NCBI GenBank assembly: GCA_009838965.1
Contig: VXQP01000083.1
Location: 1-37,922 of the forward strand
DNA length: 37,922 bases
Reading direction: 5' to 3'
Source: Chloroflexota bacterium
GTDB taxonomy: Bacteria > Chloroflexota > Dehalococcoidia > Lucifugimonadales > Australimonadaceae
The position numbers were made by a program, and so were the translations under genes. A model generated the notes under the pieces. That model had not been told where the DNA came from and did not search any database. It was given only the letters and a program-made list of their open reading frames with translations. Within the stretch, counting starts at the first letter, position 1. Every line of letters starts with the position of its first letter. Below are positions 1-24,344 of the stretch, piece by piece.

Positions 1-72
1 TTAATCATCCGGCGACCACCTACACCTACACCTCTCTATTCGGCGGCAGCGTCAGATGTGTATACCCGACAG
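1..72. other. Illumina Nextera adapter artefact at contig end
   Basis: Positions 3-31 match the 29-nt Illumina P5 sequence with a few substitutions. Positions 32-39 read CTCTCTAT, which is the Nextera i5 index N502. Positions 40-72 match the 33-nt Nextera read-1/transposon-end oligonucleotide, with one mismatch in the first part and three near the mosaic end. All three parts are in the correct order with no insertion or deletion. This is library sequence retained at the contig end, so biological sequence starts at about 73. The adapter sequences are from memory; the alignment is direct. Confidence 0.93.
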
Positions 73-275
73 GTGAGGGTATGCGCGGGTTCAGGGTGCT
101 GGCGTTCGCCAAGGATGCGCCGGCAGACGGTGTGCTGGGAGTGAGTCTGCCGCAGTCTGCGCCCGCGCCGCTCGCGGGAGCACGGCACATGCCGTTCGGG
201 GCGGCCCCTCTCCGGTGATGGAATGCCGACTCCGCTGCGCTCCGCTCAACATGACAAGGTCCGCTTCGCTCAGCA
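73..275. other. Contig-end spacer with a short repeat module
   Basis: No convincing complete gene is seen between the adapter and the trmI stop codon. Positions 225-275 hold two degenerate copies of a module reading roughly GCTYCGCTCARCATKACA. A similar module occurs at 34950-34970, so it is probably an interspersed intergenic repeat that overlaps the 3' end of trmI. Confidence 0.5.
81..218 (+). CDS. Possible 45-residue ORF or 3' tail of a truncated gene
   Basis: An open frame runs from ATG 81 (open upstream to the adapter junction) to TGA 216-218. A weak GGTGAGGG lies just before the ATG. The product is Ala/Pro/Gly-rich and I do not recognise it. It converges on trmI. It could be the tail of a gene cut by the contig end, or chance coding in GC-rich DNA; the second is at least as likely. 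Confidence 0.2.
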   Translation: MRGFRVLAFAKDAPADGVLGVSLPQSAPAPLAGARHMPFGAAPLR

Positions 276-1171: not shown

Positions 1172-1633
1172 CTATCCCTGGAGCTTTGCCAGCTCTTCAC
1201 GGATGGCGTTGGGGTCGGGGAGGACGCCCTGGTAGGTCTCCCTGTAGCGAACGAGGCCATCCGGGTCGATTATGAAGATGGACCTGGCGCACATGCCGGA
1301 GTCCTCGTTGAAGATGCCGTATGCACGGGCGACTTCGCCGTGGGGCCAGAAATCGGACAGGAGCGAGTGGTTCAACCCGCCCAGGTTGGTCCCCCACGCC
1401 CTGAGGGCGGGGCGGGCGTCGGCGCCGAGGCCGAGGACACGTGCCCCCATCTCTTCGAACGACTTCAACGCACGGTTGAAGGTTGCGGTCTGGGTCGTTC
1501 AGCCGCCGGTGAATGCGGCGGGAAAGGAGTGGATGACGACCCACTTCTCGCCCTTGAAGCCGGCGAGGGAGACGTCCTCTCCGTTCTGGTCCTTGAGTGT
1601 GAAGTCCGGGGCTTGCTGGCCTACGTCGACCAT
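1172..1633 (-). CDS. Selenocysteine-containing peroxiredoxin (AhpC/TSA, AhpE-like)
   Basis: This 153-residue thiol/selenol peroxidase should reduce hydroperoxides in the cytoplasm. The start is ATG 1633, with AGGAGG 7 nt upstream. The N-terminus (VGQQAPDFTLKDQNGEDVSL) is classic AhpC/TSA. The active-site loop is FPAAFTGG-U-TTQ, where codon 45 is TGA (1501-1499). This matches the family motif P-x3-T-x2-C exactly, with P38, T42 and U45 in place of the peroxidatic Cys. Arg117 in MCARSIFIIDPDG is the conserved active-site Arg, and Cys115 beside it is the only Cys and could act as resolving residue. The frame is open on both sides of the TGA and stops at TAG 1174-1172. A SECIS-like hairpin follows at once, and tRNA-Sec is encoded at 24247-24344. 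A TGA sequencing error or pseudogene is possible but far less likely. Confidence 0.92.
1457..1501 (-). promoter_or_regulatory. Bacterial SECIS-like hairpin with Sec UGA codon
   Basis: The TGA occupies 1501-1499. An upper stem of seven perfect pairs (CTTCAAC 1481-1475 with GTTGAAG 1469-1463) closes the 5-nt loop CGTGC, with G as its second base. The loop begins 25 nt after the TGA. A lower stem pairs GAACGA (starting inside the TGA) with TCGTTC 1462-1457. This agrees with the general bacterial SECIS description: a short stem, a G in the first two loop positions, and about 16-37 nt from UGA to loop. SelB binding is inferred. Confidence 0.82.
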
Positions 1634-1698
1634 CTTCGGGCCTCCTGGGAGTATGAGGTACGGCGGCTAGGATAGCAGAACGGCCGGGAAGGGATGGG

Positions 1699-3387
1699 TC
1701 AGGGTTGGATGAGCCCCTCCTGAGGCTGCGTCCATGCTACCTTCGGCAGCATGGCGTGCTGCCTGGCACGTGCGAAGGATATGTCGTGGACGGGCACATC
1801 GATGATCACCGGCGCCTGGCGTTCCAGTGCGAGCGGGAGCAGTCGTTCCAGGTCCAGAGGGTCGTCCGCCTGCATGCCGACCGCGCCGAAGGACTCGGCG
1901 AACCTGATGAAGTCCGGGTTGTGCAGGTCGGTCTCATAGGTGCCGGAGAAGAAGTCATCCAGGTCGCGTGCGACGTTGCCGTAAGCGTCGTCCCTGAAGA
2001 CGATGGTGACCACGTTGATGCCGTACTTGACCGCGGTTGAGAGCTCGGCGGCGTTGAACATGAAACCACCGTCTCCGTTGATGCAGACGACGGCACGGTC
2101 CGGCTGAGCCACTTTCACGCCCAGCGCCGTGGGGAACGCACCGCCGAGATTGTAAGAGTAACCGGAGTCGACGTATGTCTTCGGGTGGTTCACCTTGTAG
2201 TGCGTGCGGGAGTAGTAGCCGAGCTGGGTGATGTCCCAGACGGTGAAGGCATCGTCGGGGACACCGTGTTGGATCGCTTCGATGATGGGGAACTGTGGCT
2301 CGTGGAGGTGGATGTCGTAGTAGGCGATGAGGCGTCGGGCGGCGGCGACCGCCGGTTCGGGCGACGGACGGTCCCCTGCTCCGGCCTCGGCGAGGTGAGG
2401 AAGGAGCGCTTCGATGGTTGCCTTTGCGTCGCCGTGCAGAGGGATAGTGTTTGCCTGGACCCGGGTGAGTTCGGAGTCGTCTATGTTGATGTTGATCAGG
2501 GTAGAGGCTTCGCCGGCGGGGTTGCCCATCGAGAACCGCGTCCCGATGCCTATCACGACATCGGCGGACTGCATCACGTCGACGAGTTCGTTCATCTCCT
2601 GGACGTCCGCACGGGGGCTGAGGCATGAGCCGTAGCACAGGGGGTGGCGGTCCGGGATGGCGCCCTTGCCGCCGCCGGAGGTGATGACGGGGATGCGGGT
2701 TGCTTCGGCGAGTGCAACGAGGGCATCTTCCGCGCCCGACTGCGCCACGCCGCCTCCGGCGAGTATGACCGGGCGCTGAGACGCGGCGATGACGCGGGCG
2801 GCTTCCTGCAACTGCTCCGGGCTCGGCACGATGCGCGAGGTAGGGGCAGGATTCCGCAGCTGGATCTCGTCGCGCTCCAAGCCGGTCTCCGGAGGCATCT
2901 CGATATAGACGGGACGGGGCCGTCCGGTGCGCATCTGCCGGAAGGCCTCGGACACAGCGGCCGGAACGTCGCGCGGCGTGAGCACCTGCCGCCGCCACTT
3001 GGTGACCGGGGCAAGTGTGGCCCCCTGGTCCATGATCTCGTGGACGGCTCCGAGGTTCTTACCGAGCTGGCCTCGAGGGATCTGGCCGGCGATGAGGAGC
3101 ACAGGTGAGGAGCGGGCGTATGCGGTGGCGATGCCCGCGGCGGCGTTGTAGACGCCCGTGCCGGGCACGACCATGACGACTCCCGGCTTCCCTGATGCGC
3201 GGGCGTAACCGTCGGCCATGTGCGCAGCGCCCTGCTCGTGGCGGGTGGTGATCATGCGCATGCCGGGTTCGTCCCGCATTGCGGCGACGATCCCGTTCAT
3301 GTGTATGCCGGGAATGCCGAATACGGTGTCGACGCCTTCGCGCAGCAGGGACTGCACGAGGGCCTCGCCTCCGCTCATTCTGGGCAC
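1699..3387 (-). CDS. Thiamine-diphosphate-dependent enzyme, acetolactate synthase-like
   Basis: This 562-residue protein has the three-domain layout of the ThDP decarboxylase/acetolactate synthase superfamily. The N-terminal pyrimidine-binding domain contains the catalytic Glu51 in TTRHEQGAAHMADGYAR. The central domain spans roughly residues 190-340. The C-terminal diphosphate-binding domain contains GDG at 438-440. Where most relatives have an N-N pair after GDG, this one reads FRDDAYGN. The true substrate (2-oxo acid decarboxylation, carboligation or oxalyl-CoA-type chemistry) cannot be read from sequence. The start is GTG 3387, because GGAGG lies 9 nt upstream; ATG 3378 would be 18 nt away. 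It follows the DUF1330 gene by 22 bp and is probably in the same operon. No regulatory subunit gene is adjacent, which argues against biosynthetic IlvB. Confidence 0.85.
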   Translation of the reverse strand: MPRMSGGEALVQSLLREGVDTVFGIPGIHMNGIVAAMRDEPGMRMITTRHEQGAAHMADGYARASGKPGVVMVVPGTGVYNAAAGIATAYARSSPVLLIAGQIPRGQLGKNLGAVHEIMDQGATLAPVTKWRRQVLTPRDVPAAVSEAFRQMRTGRPRPVYIEMPPETGLERDEIQLRNPAPTSRIVPSPEQLQEAARVIAASQRPVILAGGGVAQSGAEDALVALAEATRIPVITSGGGKGAIPDRHPLCYGSCLSPRADVQEMNELVDVMQSADVVIGIGTRFSMGNPAGEASTLININIDDSELTRVQANTIPLHGDAKATIEALLPHLAEAGAGDRPSPEPAVAAARRLIAYYDIHLHEPQFPIIEAIQHGVPDDAFTVWDITQLGYYSRTHYKVNHPKTYVDSGYSYNLGGAFPTALGVKVAQPDRAVVCINGDGGFMFNAAELSTAVKYGINVVTIVFRDDAYGNVARDLDDFFSGTYETDLHNPDFIRFAESFGAVGMQADDPLDLERLLPLALERQAPVIIDVPVHDISFARARQHAMLPKVAWTQPQEGLIQP

Positions 3388-4133: not shown

Positions 4134-5615
4134 TTACTCCTCGGCGGGGCGCCAGCGGAGCTCGGGACGGCGGGCGGCGCGGGCCTCGTCGAGGCGGGAG
4201 ATGGGGGTCTCGTACGGCGCGCCGCGCAGGAACTCCTCGTCCGCGGCGGCCTCGGCGTCGATGCGTTCGAGCGTCTCGATGAAGGCGTCGAGCGTCTCCT
4301 TCGACTCCGTCTCGGTGGGCTCGATCATGAGCGCTTCGGGCACGACGAGCGGGAAGTACATGGTGGGCGCGTGGAAGCCGTGGTCCAGCAGGCGCTTGGA
4401 GACGTTGAGCGCGGTCGCCCCGGCGCGTTTGCGGGCGGCGAAGACGACCTCGTGCATGACGGAGCGGTCGTACGGGAGTTCGAAGAGGGAGCGGAGCTTC
4501 GCGAGCAGGTAGTTGGCGTTGAGCACGGCATTGCCGCTGATGTTCAGCATCCCCTCGCCGCCGAGGAGCGAGATGTAGGTGAGGGCGCGAATCAGCACGC
4601 CGAAGTTGCCCTGGGACGCGCCGCAGCGCCCGATGCTCTGTGCTGGCATCTCGCTGCCGTAGGAGCCGTCATCGCGCCGTACGACGATGGGACCGGGGAG
4701 GAAGGGGGCGAGCACCTCGGTGACGCAGATGGGCCCTGCACCGGGTCCGCCGCCGCCGTGAGGCGTGCTGAACGTCTTGTGCAGGTTCATGTGGACGACG
4801 TCGAAGCCGAAGTGGCCGAGCTTGGCGCGCCCGAGCAGCGCGTTCATGTTGGCGCCGTCTCCGTAGACGAGGCCGCCCGCCTCGTGGACGACGCGGCACA
4901 TCTCGATGGCGTTGCGGTCGAAGAGGCCGAGGGTTGTGGGCTGGGTGAACATGACGCCTGCGAGGTCGTCGCCGGCTTCAGCGCGGACGGCGTCGAGGTC
5001 GATGTCGCCGCCGGACGTGGAAGGGATGGAGATGACCTGGAATCCGGCCATGGCGGCTGACGCAGGATTCGTGCCGTGGGCGGTGTCCGGGATGAGCATC
5101 TTGCGCCGGTGCCCATCGCCACGGGCGTCGAGCGCCGCGCGGAGGGTGAGGATGCCCGCGAGTTCGCCCTGCGCGCCCGCGAGGGGGGCGAGGCTCGCGC
5201 TCGGGAGGCCGCTCACCTCCTGCAGGTAGGTCTGCAGGGTGAATATGGCCTCCAAGCACCCCTGGACCTGCGCCTCTGGCTGGGCAGGATGCGCGAGTGC
5301 GAAGCCGGGTGTCGCGGCGACGGCCTCGTTCAGCTTAGGGTTGTACTTCATCGTGCAGCTGCCGAGGGGGTAGAAGTTGGTGTCGATGGAGAAGTTCAGC
5401 TGGCTGAGGTGGGTGAAGTAGCGGACCACCTCGCCCTCGGTCACCTCCGGCAGTTGCAGGTCGTCGCGAAGCATCGCCTGCTCCGGCATGAGCTGCGGCG
5501 GCACGTCGGACGCGGGGAGTGTCACACCGGTTCGTCCCGGGCGGCTGCGCTCCATGAGCAGCCTGCGGCGGTCATGCGCTTCCTCGCGGAAGGGAGTGTC
5601 CGGCATGGAGGTCAT
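4134..5615 (-). CDS. gcvPB: Glycine dehydrogenase (decarboxylating) subunit 2
   Basis: This is the C-terminal half of the two-subunit P-protein (493 residues). With GcvPA it decarboxylates glycine using pyridoxal phosphate and passes the aminomethyl group to the lipoyl arm of GcvH. The PLP lysine is Lys280 in MNLHKTFSTPHGGGGPG. Other family signatures are YPLGSCTMKYNPK, PDTAHGTNPASAAMAGF and YGDGANMNALLG. The start ATG 5615 overlaps the gcvPA stop as ATGA, indicating translational coupling. The frame stays open far upstream of this ATG, but only as a shadow of gcvPA. It is the last gene of gcvT-gcvH-gcvPA-gcvPB. Confidence 0.97.
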   Translation of the reverse strand: MTSMPDTPFREEAHDRRRLLMERSRPGRTGVTLPASDVPPQLMPEQAMLRDDLQLPEVTEGEVVRYFTHLSQLNFSIDTNFYPLGSCTMKYNPKLNEAVAATPGFALAHPAQPEAQVQGCLEAIFTLQTYLQEVSGLPSASLAPLAGAQGELAGILTLRAALDARGDGHRRKMLIPDTAHGTNPASAAMAGFQVISIPSTSGGDIDLDAVRAEAGDDLAGVMFTQPTTLGLFDRNAIEMCRVVHEAGGLVYGDGANMNALLGRAKLGHFGFDVVHMNLHKTFSTPHGGGGPGAGPICVTEVLAPFLPGPIVVRRDDGSYGSEMPAQSIGRCGASQGNFGVLIRALTYISLLGGEGMLNISGNAVLNANYLLAKLRSLFELPYDRSVMHEVVFAARKRAGATALNVSKRLLDHGFHAPTMYFPLVVPEALMIEPTETESKETLDAFIETLERIDAEAAADEEFLRGAPYETPISRLDEARAARRPELRWRPAEE

Positions 5616-6937
5616 CGGCCTATCTCCGCGAGCGCGTCCACGAGGCGGTCGATCTGGTCGCGGGTGTTGACCTCGGTGACGCAGAGCAGCATGCCGTTCG
5701 GGTAGCGGTCGCTCACGTCCAGTCCGCCAACGATGCCGCGCTGCTGCAGCGCCGCGCTGACCTCGGCGGGAGACTTCGGGCAGGCGACGACGAACTCCTG
5801 GAAGAATGGGTCGTCGTTGGGGAGGCTGTAGCCGGGAAGTTCGGCGATGCGGGACGCGGCGTAGTGGGCCTTCTGGTGGCAGAGCTCGGCGACGTGGCGG
5901 AGTCCCTGCTTGCCCATGAGCGAGAGGTAGATGGTGGCCCAGAGCCCGATGAGCGCGGTGCTGGTGCAGATGTTGGAGGTGGCGTGCTCGCGGCGGATGT
6001 GCTGCTCCCGGGGTTGGAGCGTCAGCACGTAGCCGGTGCGTCCCTCCGTGTCCACCGTCCGTCCCGCGATGCGTCCAGGCAACTGGCGGACGTACTCCTG
6101 GCGGCAGGTGAAGATGCCGACGTACGGGCCGCCGAAACTCGGGGGTATGCCGAGCGCCTGACCCTCGCCGGTGGCGATGTCCGCGCCGAACGCGCCGGGC
6201 GGTTTGTACATGGCGAGTGCCGTGGGGTCGCACGACATGACGGCGAGCGCGCCGTGTTCGTGGGCGAGGTCTACGAGCGCCTGCGAGTCCTCGAACGCGC
6301 CGAAGAAGTTGGGGTACTGGGAGATGAGGCAGGCGGTGTCGGGCTGGAGCTCCGGTGACGTGGGCGACGTCTGGTAGACCTCGATGCCCTGGGGCTGCGC
6401 GTAGAAGCGGATCGTCTCGACGTAGCGCGGGTTGACGGTATCGAGCACCGCGACACGGGAGTGTTTCGTGACGCGGCAAGCCATGAGCGCGCCCTCTGCG
6501 AGGCTGCTTGCGCCGTCGTACATGCCCGCGTTGGAGACCTCCATGCCGAACAGTTGGGCGGTGAGGGTCTGGAACTCGAACGTGCCCTGGAGCGTTCCCT
6601 GCGACACCTCCGGCTGATAGGGGGTGTAAGAGGTGAGGAACTCGCCGCGGGTGACGAGCGGCGCGACGACGGCGGGGCAGAAGTGGTGGTAGACGCCGGC
6701 GCCGAGGAAACTCGGGTGCTCGCCCGCGTGGAAGTTGCGCTGCGCCAGCGCCGTCATCTCCGCGCGGAGCTCCATCTCCGGAATCGGCGCAGGCAGCGCG
6801 AGCCCGGGATGGCGGTACTGCTCAGGGATGTCGCCGAACAGGTCCTCTACGGCCGACGTGCCTACCTCCGCGAGCATGACGGCGCGGTCGTCGTCGGTGT
6901 TGGGGATGAAGGGCGAGGTGAGCGGCGAATCAGACAT
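5612..6937 (-). CDS. gcvPA: Glycine dehydrogenase (decarboxylating) subunit 1
   Basis: This is the N-terminal half of the split glycine decarboxylase (441 residues, normal length for this subunit). Signatures include FLGAGVYHHFCPAVV, TPYQPEVSQGTLQGTFEFQT and GMYDGASSLAEGALMACR. It forms an alpha2-beta2 tetramer with GcvPB in family members; the PLP lysine is on the partner. It starts 19 bp after gcvH and overlaps gcvPB by 4 bp, consistent with one polycistronic mRNA for all four genes. Confidence 0.97.
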   Translation of the reverse strand: MSDSPLTSPFIPNTDDDRAVMLAEVGTSAVEDLFGDIPEQYRHPGLALPAPIPEMELRAEMTALAQRNFHAGEHPSFLGAGVYHHFCPAVVAPLVTRGEFLTSYTPYQPEVSQGTLQGTFEFQTLTAQLFGMEVSNAGMYDGASSLAEGALMACRVTKHSRVAVLDTVNPRYVETIRFYAQPQGIEVYQTSPTSPELQPDTACLISQYPNFFGAFEDSQALVDLAHEHGALAVMSCDPTALAMYKPPGAFGADIATGEGQALGIPPSFGGPYVGIFTCRQEYVRQLPGRIAGRTVDTEGRTGYVLTLQPREQHIRREHATSNICTSTALIGLWATIYLSLMGKQGLRHVAELCHQKAHYAASRIAELPGYSLPNDDPFFQEFVVACPKSPAEVSAALQQRGIVGGLDVSDRYPNGMLLCVTEVNTRDQIDRLVDALAEIGR

Positions 6938-6956
6938 ACGGGCCGTGTTCAGCGCC

Positions 6957-7337
6957 TCATTCGATCAGCGCCGCGTAGGCGGGGGCGTCCAGTAGCGAGT
7001 CGAGTTCGGCAGGGTCGTCGGGCTTGACGCGGATCAGCCAGCCCTTCTCGTGCGGGCTCTCGTTCAGCAGTTCGGGCGCGTTCTTCACGTCGTCGTTGAC
7101 TGCGGTCACCTCGCCGGAGACGGGGGAGAAGAGCTCGGAGACGGCCTTGACCGACTCGACCTCGCCCATCTGGGCGTTCTGGGTCACGCGATCGCCGGGC
7201 TTCGGGAGCTCGACGTAGACGACGTCGCCCAATTCGTGCTGCGCGAAATCGGTGATGCCGACGAGGACGAGGCCGTCCCGTTCGGCCAACGCCCACTCGT
7301 GCTCTTTGGAGTAGCGGCGGTCTTCCGGAACAGACAT
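6957..7337 (-). CDS. gcvH: Glycine cleavage system H protein
   Basis: This is the lipoyl carrier protein (126 residues) that shuttles the aminomethyl group from the P-protein to the T-protein and is reoxidised by dihydrolipoamide dehydrogenase (not in this window). The lipoylated residue is Lys64 in GEVESVKAVSELFSPVSG. The start RRYSKEHEWA and the GITDFAQHELGDVVYVELP segment are typical. It follows gcvT with a 2-bp gap, so translation is probably coupled. Confidence 0.97.
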   Translation of the reverse strand: MSVPEDRRYSKEHEWALAERDGLVLVGITDFAQHELGDVVYVELPKPGDRVTQNAQMGEVESVKAVSELFSPVSGEVTAVNDDVKNAPELLNESPHEKGWLIRVKPDDPAELDSLLDAPAYAALIE

Positions 7338-7339
7338 AG

Positions 7340-8440
7340 CTATCGCGACCTCTTGTAGAAGGGAAGGGCCACGATCTGCGCCGGAATCTGCCGTCCACGA
7401 ACGTCTACGGCGATGGGGGTTCCGGGCTCGCTGGCCTCTCTCGGAAGATAGCCGAGGCCTATATTGGTGTCAAGGTAAGGCGAGTAGCTGCCACTCGTGA
7501 CTTCGCCCACGTCGGCGCCGTCGATGAGGATGCGGTGATGTGCCCTCGGCGCGGGGCCTCGCTCGGCCGTGCGGAAGCCCGCGAGCACGCGCGCCGTGCC
7601 ATTCTCCGCGGCTGCCCGCACCGCGTCCGCGCCGCAGAAGTCCCGCTCCAGCCGGACGAAGCGCTCCAGCCCGGCCTCGATGGGGTTGACGGTCTCATCC
7701 ATGTCGGAGCCGTGCAGCAGCAGAGCGGCTTCCAGGCGGAGCGTGTCTCGCGCGCCGAGGCCGCACGGGGCTGCGCCGGCGTCCATGAGGGCGCGCCAGA
7801 GGGCGGACGCGACTTCCGAGGCCGGCATGATCTCGATTCCGTCCTCGCCGGTGTAGCCGGTGCGGGCTATGAGGGCGGACGCGCCCATGACCTCGGTCTC
7901 GACGACGTTGAACGGTCGCACAGCATCGGGATCGAAGCCTGCGACCTGTCCGGCGATGTAGGTGGCGTCCGGCCCCTGCAGCGCAATCATCGCGATCTCG
8001 GCGGTGCGGTCGGTAAGCGTTGTGCCGGGGAAGCGCTCGTCCCGCCAACGCTCCAGCCACGCGAAGACCTTCGGGGCGTTCGCGGCGTTGGCGACGATGA
8101 TGAACCGCTCCTCGCCGAGCCGGTAGACGATTGCATCGTCGATGATGCCGCCGGACTCGTTGCAGAGGAGGCCGTAGCGCGCGCGGCCCATCGGCATCGC
8201 CTCGCCGACGTCGGCGGTGTGCACCCAGTCCAGGAGGGCGCGGGCGTCCGGCCCGTCAACGGCGAAGCGCCCCATGTGGGAGACGTCGAAGATGCCGGCT
8301 GCGGTGCGGACGGCTCGCGCCTCGGCGAGGACGCCCGCGTACTGCACGGGCATGTCGTATCCGGCGAATGGCACCATGCGGGCGCCGAGGGAGACGTGGT
8401 CGTCGTGCAGGACAGTGGTGCGGAGAGGGGCGTCTGCCAT
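7340..8440 (-). CDS. gcvT: Aminomethyltransferase (glycine cleavage T protein)
   Basis: This 366-residue folate-dependent enzyme releases ammonia from aminomethylated GcvH and forms 5,10-methylene-tetrahydrofolate. It has the family signatures FDVSHMGRF, the catalytic Asp101 in ESGGIIDDAIVY, RTGYTGEDGIEI and the C-terminal barrel with TSGSYSPYLDTNIGLGYL. It is the first gene of the gcv operon. The start ATG 8440 has no Shine-Dalgarno; instead a TACGCT hexamer ends 6 nt before it, suggesting a leaderless mRNA. Only 48 bp separate it from the divergent luciferase-like gene, which leaves no room for a glycine riboswitch. Confidence 0.96.
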   Translation of the reverse strand: MADAPLRTTVLHDDHVSLGARMVPFAGYDMPVQYAGVLAEARAVRTAAGIFDVSHMGRFAVDGPDARALLDWVHTADVGEAMPMGRARYGLLCNESGGIIDDAIVYRLGEERFIIVANAANAPKVFAWLERWRDERFPGTTLTDRTAEIAMIALQGPDATYIAGQVAGFDPDAVRPFNVVETEVMGASALIARTGYTGEDGIEIMPASEVASALWRALMDAGAAPCGLGARDTLRLEAALLLHGSDMDETVNPIEAGLERFVRLERDFCGADAVRAAAENGTARVLAGFRTAERGPAPRAHHRILIDGADVGEVTSGSYSPYLDTNIGLGYLPREASEPGTPIAVDVRGRQIPAQIVALPFYKRSR

Positions 8441-24246: not shown

Positions 24247-24344
24247 GGGAGTGGATGGGTCCCGGTGGGTCTCGCGGTCTTCAAAACCGTTGCCGGGCCA
24301 GCTTCCTGGTTCGGGGAGGGTTCGACTCCCTCGCACTCCCGCCA
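24247..24344 (+). tRNA. selC: tRNA-Sec (anticodon UCA)
   Basis: This 98-nt tRNA decodes UGA as selenocysteine. The acceptor stem pairs 24247-24253 with 24334-24340; the eighth position is a G-G mismatch by my folding. The anticodon stem GCGGT/ACCGT (24274-24278 and 24286-24290) holds the loop CTTCAAA with anticodon TCA at 24281-24283. A long variable arm of 9 pairs, two of them G-U, spans 24293-24314. The T-arm GAGGG-TTCGACT-CCCTC spans 24316-24332. Discriminator G and an encoded CCA end the gene. Length, anticodon and variable arm together exclude tRNA-Ser, tRNA-Leu and a suppressor tRNA. Confidence 0.96.

Follow-up and report, generated by a model that had tools for sequence, protein, structure and literature searches.

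Peroxiredoxins that carry selenocysteine (Sec) in a TXXU motif (PF00578) have been known since 2001, first as PrxU of Eubacterium acidaminophilum and later from the Sargasso Sea metagenome (PMC1088965; PMC13188914, in excerpt), in whose data only one other known selenoprotein family was more abundant (PMC1088965). The consensus bacterial SECIS has a G in the first two bases of its loop, which lies 16-37 nt from the UGA (PMC13188914, Fig 2 legend). According to excerpts of the same 2026 review, some bacterial SECIS elements do not conform to this model (PMC13188914), so that exceptions are anticipated. The literature searched, in which few subscription journals were covered, contained no distal bacterial SECIS and no link between SAR202 bacteria and selenoproteins, and its abstracts, with the same coverage, gave no description of an AhpE with Sec; an earlier description is possible in each case.

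The window, a stretch of 37,922 nucleotides from a Chloroflexota bacterium (GCA_009838965.1, contig VXQP01000083.1), contains a gene of the same kind as the TXXU family, sharing the AhpC/TSA fold, the PxxxTxxU motif, a peroxidatic Sec, and a UGA followed by a downstream hairpin. The coding sequence (1172..1633, minus strand) consists of 153 codons plus TAG (1174-1172); its ATG (1633-1631) follows an AGGAGG ribosome-binding site (1641..1646, minus strand), and a single in-frame TGA (1499..1501, minus strand) would be read as U45 of P38-x3-T42-x2-U45. An earlier sequence-only reading of this DNA had described the AhpC/TSA frame, the strong ribosome-binding site and the one TGA, all of which are present as described. 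The Pfam AhpC-TSA match covers residues 4-130 (E 9e-35). The nearest relative of known structure is the one-Cys peroxiredoxin AhpE of M. tuberculosis (1xxu, 1xvw, 4x0x; best solved, 1xxu/4x0x): the top seven PDB matches (E 2e-32 to 3e-31) comprise six entries for Rv2238c/MT2298 and one AhpC/TSA family protein, and the next match stands at 1e-17. The two proteins are co-linear over residues 1-141, with U45 on the peroxidatic Cys45, so that Sec takes the place of Cys, R117 on R116, and Thr42 matched. The alignment bears out the claims that the TGA falls exactly on the Cys of P-x3-T-x2-C and that Arg117 is conserved. PrxU, named at that stage as an example of a Sec-peroxiredoxin, is the same kind of protein but not the closest relative of known structure; against the PrxU model (NCBIfam NF040737) the AhpE-like, 153-aa window protein scores 72.9 bits, far below the cut-off of 270.

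Among the aligned homologues, the codon at the position of U45 is TGA in 102 distinct genes, Cys in 89, and TAA or TAG in none. A misread TGC or TGT, raised earlier as a possible objection, is countered by the recurrence of TGA at this codon in separately assembled relatives, including two named MAGs with 90-92% identity; close relatives with TGA here are Dehalococcoidia bacterium p16x34bins.71, SAR202 cluster bacterium bin16 and Chloroflexi bacterium B78T1L10. Across 98 related genomes, nearly all best matches contain one TGA. Other stops were listed inside some distant relatives; the cases traced, a TAA (L122) and a TAG (L119), lie at alignment positions 149 and 152 and mark the gene end, not a Sec codon. 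The Sec machinery is also present, as the sequence-only reading had supposed it should be. The window's genome, a draft of 106 contigs, encodes selA (contig C28), selB (C19, a nearly full-length match) and selD (C46, with an in-frame TGA of its own), and the window itself holds selC, a tRNA-Sec gene with anticodon UCA (24247..24344, plus strand; ARAGORN; Rfam RF01852 at 69.9 bits, where the gathering score is 47). As selA, selB and selD lie on contigs other than that of the tRNA, the sel genes are dispersed. In the related genomes, selD is above the cut-off in 79 of 98, with one TGA among the matches listed, and the CAGU motif is present in the 30 selD genes read from the window's order.

The exchange of TGA with Cys, aligned exactly at position 45, and the sel machinery support at sequence level the earlier proposal of a selenoenzyme, and the window gene is very probably a translated Sec-peroxiredoxin, a new member of a family already known. 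It is highly improbable that the TGA is a true stop, leaving a pseudogene or two short products. Under translation table 11 this frame does retain just one ORF, of 98 aa and starting at an internal TTG (1172-1468, residues 56-153), the truncation that had been foreseen for standard annotation, but the read-through frame is conserved past the TGA in all 102 distinct genes, in Chloroflexota and Bacillota, the catalytic codon of these genes is always TGA, and selection on RNA structure after it appears only in Sec genes. Reassignment of TGA to another amino acid has a negligible probability: other frames in the genome are open through TGA, but tRNA-Sec (UCA), SelA, SelB and SelD are all present, the in-frame TGA sits on the catalytic Cys position, and TGA still works as an ordinary stop in this DNA, since the upstream neighbour on the same strand (1699-3387) terminates in TGA (1701-1699).

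The hairpin downstream of the window's UGA fits the canonical SECIS in having a G in the first two loop bases, a loop of 3-9 nt, a stem of 4-16 bp, and a distance of 16-37 nt. Its apical part, CUUCAAC[CGUGC]GUUGAAG (1463..1481, minus strand), has the 7-bp stem and the 5-nt loop with G as second base that had been noticed from the letters; the loop begins 24 nt after the UGA, so that the distance of 25 nt given then was off by a single base. A lower stem, GAACGA (1500-1495) with UCGUUC (1462-1457), begins in the UGA (1457..1500, minus strand) and is kept only in the closest relatives. The minimum-energy fold of the 45-nt region reaches -12.6 kcal/mol (z -2.47; 6 of 200 shuffles are as stable). 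It contains the lower stem, as predicted for 1501-1457, but encloses another inner hairpin; the predicted combination of lower stem and apical hairpin amounts to -10.6 kcal/mol and is not the minimum. Against the consensus cut-off of at most -7.5 kcal/mol, the hairpin alone has -7.0 and the 45-nt region -12.6, values for which the folding span of the model may differ. In nine genes of the window's family (down to 52% identity), 4 of 5 codons for invariant residues in the hairpin have the same DNA sequence throughout, as against 1 of 35 elsewhere (p = 2.7e-4), so that the hairpin is kept at synonymous sites. Covariation of the hairpin within the family is slight, since the protein does not vary at these residues. 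In a sister genus the corresponding position is taken by a different hairpin, GUCGUUC[GGUC]GAGCGAC, and two other Sec-type AhpC-TSA genes read in the window's genome have proximal G-loop hairpins too.

Selenium incorporation and peroxidase activity are predicted along the following lines. SelD would make selenophosphate and SelA the Sec-tRNA, which SelB, bound to the GU-containing loop of the 1481-1463 hairpin, would bring to the ribosome stalled at UGA 45. With T42 and R117 to activate it, U45 would then reduce peroxides, and an external thiol would probably regenerate it, as a conserved resolving Cys seems to be lacking: C115 occurs in close relatives and is absent from L012, and some distant relatives have a Cys four residues past U.

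Most relatives carry a second type of hairpin, termed H2, farther from the UGA. It is present in 67 of the 102 Sec genes as against 5 of the 89 Cys genes, and typically reads AUACCCAG[GUN]CUGGGUAU, with the loop 60 nt after the UGA, or 59 nt where the loop has 5 nt. Stem and G[G/U] loop agree with the canonical SECIS, as do the window hairpin and the selD hairpins of the order, whereas the distance of 60 nt lies outside the 16-37 nt of the consensus. In the window's genus the hairpin is proximal, and the place of H2 in the window gene, located by comparison with the distal hairpin of other families (1427..1447, minus strand), is degenerate. In a folding scan against synonymous shuffles, structure in the Sec genes peaked twice, once at +12..48, where the mean z is -1.39, and again at +48..84, where it is -1.41; the Cys homologues had no peaks of that size (the t values ignore kinship). 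An Rfam search at the hairpins matched no known RNA family, even at E 5.

The preferred reading, to which a probability of about 0.6 is assigned, is that H2 would be a displaced SECIS in the AhpE-like Sec-peroxiredoxins of Chloroflexota and some Bacillota. On this reading an intervening hairpin, H1, would be looped out to keep the effective spacing at 23 nt, the signal would have switched between distal and proximal places in evolution, and the RNA pairing would couple two positions of the protein, the amino acid at each being tied to the codon at the other. H2 is called a SECIS because it tracks Sec, resembles the selD elements in design, occurs in genes whose proximal G-loop hairpins are near chance, and stands at a suitable spacing if H1 is looped out. 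In the selD genes of the window's order, structure peaks only once, at the position of a canonical SECIS, and in 28 of 30 the strongest hairpin there has a loop that begins G[G/U] or NG[G/U], e.g., CUGGCGCAG[GUG]CUGCGCCAG at 33 nt; H2 shares their stem length and GUN loop. As for spacing, RNAalifold applied to the H2-bearing genes, which were not selected for H1, finds a 7-bp stem that closes the 37-nt H1, beginning 11 nt after the UGA, then a 4-nt linker, then H2. The basal stem of H1 forms 5.34 of 7 pairs in H2-bearing genes, against 3.66 in the synonymous null, and 3.43 against 3.08 in genes lacking H2. Since 60 minus 37 leaves 23 nt, close to the proximal spacing (mostly 17-27 nt), and since this stem clearly exceeds the null only in H2-bearing genes, H1 may be a folded-out spacer. 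In most relatives, SelB would then bind a hairpin at 60 nt instead of 17-33 nt, with H1 folding out 37 nt to leave an effective distance of about 23 nt; both the SelB binding and the spacer role are predictions from sequence.

A possible but less probable account assigns the roles the other way round, with H1 as a SECIS of relaxed loop and H2 as a second element, such as a pause, a recoding stimulator or an mRNA stability hairpin. Of the two hairpins, H1 is the nearer to the canonical position, and selection acts on its basal stem as well (the 5.34 pairs noted above). This account has to explain why H2 has the stem length and GUN loop of the selD elements, and why proximal G[G/U]-loop hairpins in H2-bearing genes are little above the level of synonymous shuffles (0.13 against 0.08), as opposed to 0.66 against 0.16 in genes without H2. 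By plain count, the proximal G-loop hairpin occurs in 9 of 67 H2-bearing genes and 23 of 35 others (p = 2e-7). Mutual exclusion of the two hairpins is nevertheless not relied on, because phylogenetically independent pairs (six, on well-supported branches) fail to support it. By plain count the H1 basal stem and H2 also go together (46 of 67 as against 8 of 35, p = 2e-5); this coupling has the expected direction in the independent-pair test, which is underpowered. A single fixed structure for all Sec genes was rejected: RNAalifold on an unselected, mixed set of 66 gave no common structure, as expected if two architectures are mixed, a result that lends no support to them either.

The remaining explanation of H2, quite unlikely, is that it is a by-product of the codons favoured for the peptide [A/T]-Q-V-L-G. 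The preferred codons GCC CAG GTN CTG GGC are partly palindromic, and the hairpin does occur in the few Cys genes counted above and in four further ones (L266-L269). Codon usage in Sec genes is coupled across the stem, however: Ala (GCC) goes with Gly GGC in a ratio of 44:1 and Thr (ACC) with GGU in a ratio of 26:3, whereas Cys genes with Thr at this place have GGC (5:0). The Gln codon CAG goes mostly with Leu CUN, and CAA with UUG, and the stem is retained by matched changes in the protein variants G-QVL-A and A-QVL-S. Genes with H2 form 7.75 of its 8 pairs as against 5.83 under the synonymous null, while Cys genes form 5.34 against 5.45. The tree shows 13 changes between Ala and Thr at H2; of the 6 independent pairs that lie on well-supported branches, 4.8 go the same way and 0.5 the opposite way, too few pairs for significance. 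In 66 divergent Sec genes, a set chosen for neither hairpin, the two basal helices show a covariation of 0.291, against 0.161 in shuffles that do not remove kinship (0 of 500) and at most 0.142 in slid controls, and 14 of their 15 pairs change on both sides. Judged from these sequence comparisons, selection on the RNA itself is well supported for both arrangements.

H2 as a displaced SECIS, if true, would bear directly on how mRNA-bound SelB reaches the ribosomal A site. The H2 class may be one of the subsets that, according to the review excerpts, fail the consensus model. Annotation pipelines and bSECIS searches, which assume that a hairpin follows the UGA immediately and has its loop at 16-37 nt, would truncate such genes or call most of the family SECIS-less. 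The spacing rule is testable, because one gene occurs naturally in a proximal and a distal version.

Much of the window's order has H2, as do other families and classes of Chloroflexota, Sulfobacillus harzensis and three further genomes from the phylum of that species, in every case at 60 nt; both S. harzensis (L059) and the Anaerolineaceae genome have a selD with TGA. The longer PrxU-like proteins of Bacillota (frames of ~240-260 aa) mostly have their hairpin in the proximal position, 17 nt from the UGA, as in UUUCAGC[AGUU]GCUGAAA. The Cys-type relatives L266-L269, from the Sulfobacillus phylum, have a hairpin resembling H2 at 63 nt past the Cys codon, which in L267 and L268 has 9 bp, GAUGCCCAG[GUG]CUGGGCAUC; it could be either a SECIS fossil left by a Sec-to-Cys change or a chance product of favoured codons. 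By the thresholds used, the Sec genes L239, L240 and L245 (Chloroflexota, FSPGU subfamily) and L147 lack a G[G/U]-loop hairpin at both the proximal and the distal place; in L239 and L245 the proximal place does hold a stem, CACCUC...GAGGUG, but its loop is of a different kind.

Within the window's genome, 7 of 13 PF00578 matches contain one TGA, and it looks like a selenoprotein-rich genome. By gene content, this SAR202-type lineage of Chloroflexota appears to make wide use of selenium for peroxide defence. Two more AhpC/TSA genes of the genome have an in-frame TGA at a redox position (L004, position 1621, and L005, position 1609; contigs C68 and C99; GTKGU, HFUGIC). The tRNA-Sec gene lies ~22.6 kb from the Sec gene of the window, beside an ABC transporter cluster, and glycine cleavage genes (P-protein and T-protein domains; 4134-8440, minus strand) lie upstream of the neighbouring gene 1699-3387, which encodes a thiamine-diphosphate enzyme. 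Sec and Cys paralogues of the window peroxiredoxin stand side by side at two loci (L127, G049 C118:1300-3500; L139, G024 C194).
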